Shown here: in pieces, positions 19,352 to 24,028 of the stretch | Numbering within the stretch: position 1 is the first letter of the stretch | Layout: every line of letters starts with the position of its first letter | NCBI GenBank assembly: GCA_937859595.1 | Contig: CALMAH010000015.1 | Span: 186,001 to 250,000, forward strand | Length of the DNA stretch: 64,000 bases | Reading direction: 5' to 3' | Source of the DNA: an uncultured Acidobacteriota bacterium | Lineage (GTDB): Bacteria > Acidobacteriota > Blastocatellia > Pyrinomonadales > Pyrinomonadaceae | Notes under the pieces: model-generated | The model's database searches: none | The model's input: only the letters and a program-made list of their open reading frames with translations | What the model was told of the DNA's origin: nothing | Position numbers and translations under genes: made by a program

Positions 19352-20161
19352 CTACACATCAAGATATTGGGTACCCTCTGCGCTGCCCAGGAAGTATTGC
19401 TTTGGCGTGTATCCAGAGAATCTGCGAAAGTCATTGGTGAAATGAGACTGATCGTAATAGCCGCATTCGTAGGCTATCGACGCGAGGTCGGTGAAGCCTG
19501 AGACCTTGAACTGCGTTGCCGCCTGAAACCTTATCACCCGCGAATAAAGCTTTGGGCTAAGTCCCGCGACTTCCTTGAAACGCCTTTCGAACTGTCGCCG
19601 TGAAAGAGAAAAGTCCCGCGAGATCGATGAGATATCGACGTCTCCTTTTGCATCCATTACTTTTCTGACTGCATGATGAATAGGTAAAATATCCCAAGTG
19701 CTCGAGTCGAGTTTTCCTAGAAGGAAACGGATGGCGATCCCTACCCGTTCTTCACTGTCCTTCGCCAGCGCGATCTTTTCCTCAAGCAGCGCTGCCTCGA
19801 CGCCAAACACATCCCTAAGGTCGGGTGAAATGTCAGTCAACTCGCTTGCAGGCATTGAAAACAGCTTTGGGATCGCAAACGGAAAAAGATAAACTCCAAA
19901 GATGCCAAAACTCTCTCTGCCCACAAAGCGTCTATATACCGTAGATTGAGCCTGTATATTCCCGCGCGTTGATGCGGATGTCTCACCTTCTGCACTTAAT
20001 TCAGAAAAGGCCCCGCGATAATGGAAGACCATTTCAACGGAGCCATCGGCAACTGTTCTGTGGACAAACTCCTCTCCGCGCCCAACGTTTCCCTCAAGTG
20101 CCCAAAAGAAGCGTACATAGGGCGCTAATCTGACGGGTGGAGGAAACACGCGATAGATCAT
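19352..20161 (-). CDS. AraC family transcriptional regulator
   Basis: A 269-residue regulator. The C-terminal third holds the paired helix-turn-helix of AraC/XylS proteins: 'ISSISRDFSLSRRQFERRF' and 'LASIAYECGYYDQSHFTNDF', then 'RRFSGYTPKQYF'. The N-terminal part ('FPPPVRLAPYVRFFWALEGN') fits the DUF6597-type sensing domain common in these regulators. It may control the coupled NTF2/VOC genes just downstream (84-base gap), which is inference from position only. Confidence 0.93.
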   Translation of the reverse strand: MIYRVFPPPVRLAPYVRFFWALEGNVGRGEEFVHRTVADGSVEMVFHYRGAFSELSAEGETSASTRGNIQAQSTVYRRFVGRESFGIFGVYLFPFAIPKLFSMPASELTDISPDLRDVFGVEAALLEEKIALAKDSEERVGIAIRFLLGKLDSSTWDILPIHHAVRKVMDAKGDVDISSISRDFSLSRRQFERRFKEVAGLSPKLYSRVIRFQAATQFKVSGFTDLASIAYECGYYDQSHFTNDFRRFSGYTPKQYFLGSAEGTQYLDV

Positions 20162-20168
20162 AACAGGT

Positions 20169-21287
20169 TCAATCGACCCAGCCCCACGGTGCCGGCGGCG
20201 GAGCCACTTCTTTTTTCAGGTCGAACTTGACGGAAAAGAGACGGCCACGTCCCAAACGACGAAGGTTATAGATATAGTGCTCGCCCGGCACGAGCTCTAT
20301 CCACCAGATGTTTGCCGCGGCGGTTGGAGCATCGCCCGGCGGCAGGTCCACCACACGAAGAGTCTCCTGGTCTGCCGGGAAGAATTGCCTGATCGCCTCG
20401 CCGGTGTTATTCGACCATCCTCCGTACATCGTTACGCGGTCGGGCGAACCGTCCTCGTGCCGATGGTCGTGTTTTAGCTGCAGCCGGTCGCCCTTTCGTG
20501 TCAGCACCCACGTTCGCGATCGGTCTTCACCGACAAAGAAAGGTATCCGGATCCTATCCTCTTCACACGACCGCACGTGCATCACCATACGCTTGCCTGC
20601 AAAGTCGGGACTATTCGAAGTGTCTGCCTCCACAACCCCCTCAAAGGCTTTTCCGCAGAGAGTTCGGAGTCGGCTCCAGAAAGTATCCAGGCCGGAATCG
20701 GCCCAGCCCCACGGTGCCGGCGGCGGCTCGATCTCAGTTTTGAGGTCAAACCTTACGCTTATCCTCTGATCTGATTCGACCCGTCGCACGCTGTATGTAT
20801 AGTGCTCGCCGGGCGTAAGTTCGATCCACCAAACATTCGTTCCGGCACGCGGCAGGTTTTTCACAGTCTCTGCGTCGGCCGGGAACATCTGCCGGTTCGC
20901 CATCCCGGGGCTGGTCGTCCAGCCGCCGTACATCGTCACCGTATCCGGCGAGCCGTCATCGTTCCGATGGTCGTGCCGCAGCTCTATCCGGTCGCCCTTC
21001 TTTGTGAGGATCCAGGTTCGTGAAAGATCGTCGCCGATCACGAACGGTATCTTAATGCGATCCGACTCACATTGTCGGACATGCATCTTCAACTCTCTGC
21101 CCCTAAAGGTCGTGTCGTTTTCCGGAGCAAAGAGGACTTCGCCCGCAAATGCCTTGCCGCACAGAGCGTTGAGGTTTTTCCAAAAAATATCTGTAGGTGA
21201 CGCATCATCCTGTGCGGCGGCCGCGAATGGAAAACAAAGAATGGCCGCCATCGCGACGGCCACTGGCAAGTTAGAGCGATTCTTCAT
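20169..21287 (-). CDS. Secreted protein built of two copies of an unrecognised domain
   Basis: About 372 residues. A signal peptide (LPVAVAMAAILCFPFAAAA-Q) is followed by two tandem copies, each about 165-175 residues and strongly alike. Each copy runs: 'FW..L..LCGKAF', 'M.MHVR.CE.DRI.IPF', 'SRTW.LT.KGDR..L.HDHR', 'GSPD.VTMYGGW', 'FPAD.ET', 'WWIEL.PGEHY.Y..RR', 'PPPAPWGW'. Two cysteines per copy are conserved. Many His/Asp/Trp residues suggest a ligand or metal site, but I know no named family. ATG 21287 is preferred over 21347 because it starts the signal peptide directly. The gene is 7 bases upstream of the AraC gene. Confidence 0.82.
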   Translation of the reverse strand: MKNRSNLPVAVAMAAILCFPFAAAAQDDASPTDIFWKNLNALCGKAFAGEVLFAPENDTTFRGRELKMHVRQCESDRIKIPFVIGDDLSRTWILTKKGDRIELRHDHRNDDGSPDTVTMYGGWTTSPGMANRQMFPADAETVKNLPRAGTNVWWIELTPGEHYTYSVRRVESDQRISVRFDLKTEIEPPPAPWGWADSGLDTFWSRLRTLCGKAFEGVVEADTSNSPDFAGKRMVMHVRSCEEDRIRIPFFVGEDRSRTWVLTRKGDRLQLKHDHRHEDGSPDRVTMYGGWSNNTGEAIRQFFPADQETLRVVDLPPGDAPTAAANIWWIELVPGEHYIYNLRRLGRGRLFSVKFDLKKEVAPPPAPWGWVD

Positions 21288-22447: not shown

Positions 22448-24028
22448 CTAGCGATCGCTGCCGATTGGTACAAACGCGACCTTTGAGTTCTTGAAATCGA
22501 AAGTCATCCGATAGTTGCGAAGGAAATTGCCTCCGAGTATTCCTGCCTGTTCAAAACCAGCAGCCTCATTGATCGTACCCAGATCGAGCGCGATCGCAGT
22601 GATGCTGGGGCGGGAGTGGCGACCCACACTTATGCTCGGCAAGAGGTAGGATGGAACATCGTCCGTGATGCCCGCAGCACCGATGACACGCATACGCTGG
22701 TCACGGATGAACGGGCTGACCGAATCGAGGCTCGCAACTTCACCCGATATCACGGAGATGCTAGCTCCGGTGTCAACGATAAAGTTGAGCGGATTCTCAA
22801 CACCTTCAAGTTGCACCTCACCGCTTAGGAATCCGCTTGAGGTCAATCGGAGCGGAACGCCGTTCTCAAACCGCACTTCTTCCGCCATTCGGGAATCCTT
22901 GTGGGTAAGTGTGAAAGTAAGGTCGCCATAATCGACCGTCGCCAGGAATTTAGAGATGAGCGCCAGCCCGATGTAGCCGTCGATCTTTACCGCAGATTCG
23001 CCATGAAATTCACGAATGTAAACCGGCACATTGTTCATTGTCAGATCACCAATACCGACCCGTTCGAGAAATCCGTAAACGATCTCGAAACGGCCGTCGC
23101 CCCCGACAGCCCTTGCGTGTCCGCCCCGAGAGATAGGACGAACTCGAAGCCGCTCAGCGGTCTGGTCAGAGATAACGGAGATCCCGGAACCAGTATCGAG
23201 AACGAATCTGAGCGGTTCTCGGTGTCGATTTACCCTAACCTCGATGATCGGCCTATTCCCGACCAATTCAAATGGCACTGTCACGGTGTCCGGGCCGCGA
23301 GGGACATAGAGCCCACGCCTACTGCCAAGGTATCGAAGAAAACTGACAAGCGCCCTGATGCGTGCACGCCTTTCGTCGTCAGAATCGCGCGATACGGAGA
23401 GAAATCGGTTATAGGCCTCTGCTGCTTCCTTGTATTGCTCGGCCCTAGCCGATATCTGCGCAAGCGAAAAGATGTAGTCGGGATTATTGGGGTCGTGGAA
23501 AACGGCCTCGCGCATATTCCTCAGACTCTCATCGATGCTGTTCTCGTAAAACTCAAGAAGGCCAAAACCTGACCAGGCCATCGCTTCCCGGCGATTAAGT
23601 TGTATCGATGCGAAAAAGACCTGTCGCGCCTCAGGAAATCTCCCCGCGGCAAGTAGTGAAGAGCCAAGCACGGCCAGTGCACGCGAATTATTCGGTTCGG
23701 CCTCGGCGACCTCAAAGCTAATGTCATACGCTTCGACAATTCGGCGTTGCTTTAAAAGCGCGTGCGCGAGCATGAGCCTGATCGAGCTTTCTTCGGGATG
23801 GACAACGGCCGCATCACGCAGAAGATCTTCGGCGTCACGGAATTGACCCGAACGGACGAGGCGTTCGGCCTGGCGCACAACGCGACGCGGGTCTTCCGAG
23901 GGGGTGCTGGAGGGTTCGGTGGCAAACACCGGCACTCCGGCAAAGACCAGAGCGATAAGTAAAACTGACCAGCGCTTTAAGCGTACGGGAGCCGGCATGC
24001 GGTTGATACTCGGGTTAAAACTTCTCAT
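22448..24028 (-). CDS. Exported TPR protein with two retropepsin-like aspartyl protease domains
   Basis: A 526-residue protein. After a signal segment (about residues 17-36) come TPR-type repeats (about 45-235), then two aspartyl-protease-like domains with catalytic motifs 'FVLDTGSGISVIS' (Asp278) and 'FIVDTGASISVIS' (Asp419). Each half ends with a similar 'G..G...L..F...DF' element. Retropepsins need two DTG halves, so one chain could form the whole active site, as in pepsin. The start is secure: AAGGAGG lies 7 bases upstream of the ATG. Substrate and cleavage activity are unproven. Confidence 0.9.
   Translation of the reverse strand: MRSFNPSINRMPAPVRLKRWSVLLIALVFAGVPVFATEPSSTPSEDPRRVVRQAERLVRSGQFRDAEDLLRDAAVVHPEESSIRLMLAHALLKQRRIVEAYDISFEVAEAEPNNSRALAVLGSSLLAAGRFPEARQVFFASIQLNRREAMAWSGFGLLEFYENSIDESLRNMREAVFHDPNNPDYIFSLAQISARAEQYKEAAEAYNRFLSVSRDSDDERRARIRALVSFLRYLGSRRGLYVPRGPDTVTVPFELVGNRPIIEVRVNRHREPLRFVLDTGSGISVISDQTAERLRVRPISRGGHARAVGGDGRFEIVYGFLERVGIGDLTMNNVPVYIREFHGESAVKIDGYIGLALISKFLATVDYGDLTFTLTHKDSRMAEEVRFENGVPLRLTSSGFLSGEVQLEGVENPLNFIVDTGASISVISGEVASLDSVSPFIRDQRMRVIGAAGITDDVPSYLLPSISVGRHSRPSITAIALDLGTINEAAGFEQAGILGGNFLRNYRMTFDFKNSKVAFVPIGSDR

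Follow-up and report, generated by a model that had tools for sequence, protein, structure and literature searches.

The window, a stretch of 64,000 nucleotides from an uncultured Acidobacteriota bacterium, encodes a protein of two similar domains, and the question was what these domains are, when they were duplicated and what they may bind or convert. Family residue numbers (His77, Tyr144 and others) are given as domain positions in the C copy throughout. The gene and its parts are located as follows.

20169..21287, minus strand: coding sequence of the two-domain exported protein, 372 amino acids, ATG at 21287
21210..21287, minus strand: putative signal peptide MKNRSNLPVAVAMAAILCFPFAAAAQ, assigned by eye from the sequence
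20700..21203, minus strand: N-terminal domain copy, diverged, with RHDHRNDDG
20172..20699, minus strand: C-terminal domain copy, canonical, with KHDHRHEDG; AlphaFold pLDDT 93
20964..20975, minus strand: HDHR motif of the N copy, protein residues 105-108
20460..20471, minus strand: HDHR motif of the C copy, protein residues 273-276, equal to domain positions 77-80
21159..21161, minus strand: Cys43 of the N copy, first of a near-invariant Cys pair, from sequence and alignment
21069..21071, minus strand: Cys73 of the N copy, second of the Cys pair, from sequence and alignment
20655..20657, minus strand: Cys211 of the C copy, first of the Cys pair, domain position 15
20565..20567, minus strand: Cys241 of the C copy, second of the Cys pair, domain position 45

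The leader, read from the translation, is hydrophobic and ends in ...FPFAAAAQ; judged by eye, it bears out the claim of the earlier note that the protein is exported. All sequence blocks named there (LCGKAF, MHVR.CE.DRI, SRTW.LT, HDHR..DGSPD.VTMYGGW, WWIEL.PGEHY and PPPAPWGW) were found in both halves, and both carry the Cys pair, HDHR, YGG, Trp132 and Tyr144 and are predicted to form a barrel. BLASTP aligned the N half with the C half far beyond chance (98 of 174 residues identical, 215 bits, E-value of 8e-77), which confirmed two copies of one domain. At 56% identity these copies are not near-identical, as had been stated. The recent duplication proposed along with it had to be given up as well: comparison of the codons of both halves yielded a pS of 0.71, a saturated dS of about 2.2 and a dN of 0.35, and the tree placed the split of the halves before the species divergence.

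Two domains within a single frame were seen in just two distinct genes, that of the window and a gene from another genome of the genus (G012). Their N copies differed with a dN of 0.19 and a dS of 1.47, their C copies with a dN of 0.13 and a dS of 1.94, and dN/dS was well under 1 wherever dS was finite. A tree of 38 domains joined the two N copies (support 100/100) and placed the two C copies with a single-copy gene of the genus (support 99/96), with the N-half and C-half lineages parting before the split of the two species in the genus. Since the halves cluster with their counterparts in the second tandem gene, and the C halves also with the single-copy gene, the duplication is old. Saturated dS together with a dN/dS well below 1 further indicates an old N copy that evolves under purifying selection.

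In both N copies Arg replaces Lys76, Leu occupies position 60 and Asn or Lys replaces His81. The N copy of the window (Lys76 to Arg, His81 to Asn) has kept the His-Asp-His-Arg core. The best reading of these sequences is that the tandem form represents a drifted N-terminal copy added to a canonical C-terminal copy. The C copy has retained the family consensus, while the older N copy has drifted around the putative site. With its HDHR core retained, the N copy is probably folded and ligand-competent with an altered specificity.

No named family was known for the domain, and this held. Searched separately, the two halves showed no match in Pfam-A, NCBIfam, PHROGs and PADLOC, and profile searches with 55 family members gave no credible Pfam or NCBIfam match. 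Single-member matches to Pfam (best E-value of 0.0017) and NCBIfam (best E-value of 0.003) were discarded as scattered, inconsistent between members or below cut-off, as was Pab87_oct for a window half (Pfam E-value of 0.077, below cut-off). PDB sequence searches returned no match or chance-level ones (best E-value of 0.76). The motif HDHRHEDG was not found in the open-licence PMC text searched, and no paper about the family was among those listed there under the topics nitrobindin, calycin and lipocalin.

The family is nevertheless large. A scan of 84,980 species genomes gave at least 594 candidate stretches, of which at least 572 were confirmed by tblastn and the best 80 were kept. Single-copy homologues, which the earlier note had proposed to look for, turned out to be the rule: the relatives are nearly all single-domain proteins, mostly of about 190 amino acids, with a signal peptide or lipobox. 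They occur in Acidobacteriota, Bacteroidota, Pseudomonadota, Planctomycetota, Ignavibacteriota, Balneolota and a Desulfobulbaceae MAG; the closest named relative among the best 80 kept is a Pyrinomonadaceae MAG (75% to the C copy). Counting genomes with a match to alignment A1 at an E-value of 0.001 or below, 14 of 60 close relatives were positive, all within the genus (14/37 inside, 0/23 outside). At the same cutoff the window's own phylum had 15 positive genomes among 247. For the phylum that includes Flavobacterium petrolei the count was 32 of 296, for the phylum of Wenzhouxiangella 31 of 349 and for the phylum of a Phycisphaeraceae MAG 4 of 149. No match was found among 50,697 phage records, none was confirmed in viral contigs, and only 2 of 72,556 plasmid records matched, both called non-mobilizable; on these searches a mobile origin was rejected.

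A lipobox-like motif lies upstream of 41 of 160 domains and another hydrophobic stretch upstream of 116; the three domains with neither signal include two second copies in tandem genes. By computation, the window protein was shown to belong, as a tandem form, to an unnamed and widespread family of small exported beta-barrels, soluble or lipid-anchored. In one uncultured Acidobacteria MAG (L003, 1592-2983) a single frame of 464 amino acids encodes a TPR-repeat region followed by the domain, a possible fusion as read from this one MAG contig. Among loci L135-L142, genome G505 holds five and G465 four divergent paralogues, most with lipobox-like leaders, and two paralogues lie about 1 kb apart at L135. 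In Stenotrophomonas sp. ATCM1_4 (L011, 4689-6284) two family genes with one domain each lie side by side. One is canonical; the second carries HYQW for HDHR, has lost His79 and forms a long branch in the tree. One Saprospiraceae MAG protein (L007) bears a His-rich leader, HSDHHDHEGHD, just before the domain, the only case among 160 examined.

The neighbourhood of the window gene includes two further genes of note.

19352..20161, minus strand: AraC-type regulator with HTH_18 and DUF6597, starting 7 bp downstream of the stop codon
21361..21882, minus strand: exported SixA-like histidine phosphatase (PF00300), the upstream neighbour

The adjacency to an AraC regulator had been noticed before and was confirmed at a distance of 7 bp; a DUF4440 protein and a glyoxalase-fold protein also lie downstream. 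AraC genes stand beside a family gene at 5 loci in 3 distinct genomes, all in the window's group. As only three genomes of this group have the pairing, it says little on the general function of the domain. The SixA-like phosphatase was found near a family gene at 19 loci (16 without three re-fetched duplicates), all in the window's own group, where it adjoins single-copy relatives too. Farther upstream, at 22448-24028 on the minus strand, the window encodes a TPR protein with a hydrophobic leader and two retropepsin-like aspartyl protease stretches (Asp_protease_2 twice). No neighbour recurred across phyla, distant loci being compared by BLAST clustering only. A conserved operon partner was rejected, with recurring neighbours confined to related groups.

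Prediction of the structure of one half and comparison with solved folds, as suggested earlier, gave a confident barrel. The AlphaFold2 model of the single domain (55 sequences) reached a pLDDT of 93.0 and a pTM of 0.89, with an N-terminal helix and about 10 strands. Each domain is predicted to be a calycin-like barrel of about 10 strands with a short N-terminal helix. The full-length model contains two barrels (pLDDT 80.7, pTM 0.53) in an unsure domain arrangement; against nitrobindin they scored Z values of 11.8 (residues 201-358) and 11.4 (residues 36-183). Foldseek returned only weak matches (best E-value of 4.4e-3, none at 0.001 or below). VIA-align of the single-domain model placed OlmO (Z 11.4), nitrobindins (about 11), OssO (10.9), Rv2717c (10.7) and THAP4 (10.3) nearest. 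The spirocyclases OlmO and OssO are lipocalin-like enzymes and show that catalysis is possible in a barrel of this kind. The best fold match is OlmO (7sfn; 134 residues, 3.1 Å, 11% identity); however, PDB searches revealed no sequence similarity, and the likeness is at the level of the whole fold only.

Conservation was determined for 161 distinct domains with an effective number of about 66. Gly21, Cys45, His77, Gly93, Phe107, Trp132 and Tyr144 are invariant. Cys15, Tyr92 and Gly94 are each found in 160 domains, His79 in 159, Arg62 in 157, Asp78 in 155, Arg80 and Asp83 in 154 each, and Gln105, Asn130 and Arg148 in 150 each. His41 (144/161) and His81 (129/161) are well conserved too, though several subfamilies lack one or the other; this could point to a metal site elsewhere in the domain. 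One subfamily of four rows has His-Ala or His-Gly for Ser61-Arg62 and keeps His77-x-His79. The earlier note had taken the conserved residues as a sign of a specific ligand or a metal site. The conservation of His, Trp and Cys does point to a specific site. As both Cys residues are near-invariant in an exported protein, the pair is better read as a Cys15-Cys45 disulfide than as ligands, which we infer from the sequences.

This invariant disulfide would tie Cys15 at the end of the helix to Cys45 on the second strand. A pocket was deduced from strand alternation. Positions 73 and 75 are hydrophobic, and His77 and His79 continue the same face; hydrophobic positions 134 and 136 flank Asn130 and Trp132, and 142 and 146 flank Tyr144 and Arg148. 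His77 and His79, which share one face of strand 5, would accordingly line a polar pocket together with Tyr144, Trp132, Asn130 and Arg148 of strands 8 and 9. The pocket may bind one specific small polar ligand, or perform one reaction, in the periplasm. The alternation of strand 4 is ambiguous, with Val65 and Leu66 both hydrophobic. Hairpin counting speaks against the pocket, as it places the hydrophobic face of strand 3 opposite to that of strand 5 unless strand 4 bulges.

Three known kinds of barrel protein offer other explanations. A periplasmic buffer for zinc or copper in the manner of ZinT would hold the metal by His77, His79 and a third His before passing it on. His-x-His is present in 159 to 161 of the 161 domains, and His41 (144/161) and His81 (129/161) are candidates for the third ligand. 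ZinT/YodA (PF09223) likewise combines a His-based site with a periplasmic lipocalin-like barrel, PMC7858048 describing a three-nitrogen zinc site in such domains. The His-rich leader of the Saprospiraceae relative would fit a buffer too, but it is found in just 1 of 160, and His41 or His81 is absent from several subfamilies. The window halves and the 55 members gave no Pfam match to ZinT, hhalign against 9 ZinT sequences gave a probability of 0.2% (reversed control 0.6%), no ZinT structure stood among the fold matches listed for the single-domain and full-length models, and among the neighbours that recur we noticed neither a metal transporter nor a gene of the Zur type. We consider a metal buffer unlikely. 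Still more doubtful is a binder of haem or another tetrapyrrole, handling NO or peroxynitrite like nitrobindin, with the iron ligand shifted to His77 or His79. Nitrobindin is among the nearest solved folds, the Riemerella haemophore is also in the fold matches (Z 9.9), haem could be held by His and the conserved aromatics, and His-x-His would suit a haem site as well. The family shares the barrel of about 10 strands with nitrobindin/THAP4 (PF08768) in the predicted model (VIA-align Z 10.3-11.8 over 129-137 residues at 3.0-3.6 Å); it differs in being exported and in its near-invariant Cys pair. In nitrobindin the proximal His for the haem iron sits on the last strand; His158 is named in the titles of mutants among the nitrobindin fold matches, and F.HtD is conserved in a set of 31 bacterial nitrobindin-family sequences. 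Such a last-strand His is absent here, at most 6 of 161 rows having His in any column from 149 to 166. PF08768 was not matched by hmmscan in the window halves or the 55 members, and the hhalign probability of 0.8% against the 31 sequences was not clearly over the reversed control (0.2%). The recurring neighbours include no haem-uptake genes, and the deduced pocket looks polar rather than greasy.

The least probable of these explanations, with only a slight chance in our estimate, is that the protein carries a hydrophobic ligand (fatty acid, retinoid-like or isoprenoid), as lipocalins and fatty-acid-binding proteins do. The barrel fold agrees with it, and many fatty-acid and retinoid binders were matched; their Z scores of 8.4-8.8, however, lie below those of nitrobindin and OlmO, and the invariant residues on the presumed buried face are largely polar or aromatic. 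Calycins (lipocalins, fatty-acid-binding proteins, avidins) resemble the family in the antiparallel calyx barrel of the predicted model. Their signature, as outlined in PMC2954199, is a first-strand Trp stacked on Arg or Lys of the last strand. This Trp is missing from the sequence columns of strand 1 (0 of 161 rows with Trp at positions 14-27). DUF1579 (PF07617), chosen for comparison by its size and occurrence, is likewise small and frequent in this phylum (26 of 60 genomes); it was rejected at an hhalign probability of 0.2%, near the reversed control. Homology by profile-profile comparison was rejected for nitrobindin, ZinT and DUF1579 alike, with probabilities of at most about 1%, near the reversed controls.

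We give even chances to a new extracytoplasmic barrel family with a conserved putative His/Tyr/Arg cavity for one small ligand or reaction. Within it, we lean slightly towards a small-molecule enzyme over a carrier, since the same polar residues are conserved from phylum to phylum, no partner gene follows the family and the enzyme OlmO gives the best fold match. A bolder version is put forward tentatively, as a possibility that we would not bet on: a new periplasmic enzyme or cofactor protein of several Gram-negative phyla, a disulfide-bridged barrel with a His-x-His and Tyr/Arg active site unlike those of nitrobindins, lipocalins and ZinT, whose duplicates specialise, as in the window tandem and the Stenotrophomonas pair with one His79 loss. 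The tandem gene allows a canonical copy and a drifted one to be compared directly within one natural protein. With hundreds of members in several phyla, near-invariant polar residues, a confident fold and no entry in Pfam, NCBIfam or PDB by sequence, the family is a good target, and solving one structure or running one ligand screen would give an annotation to a secreted protein that is common in environmental bacteria.
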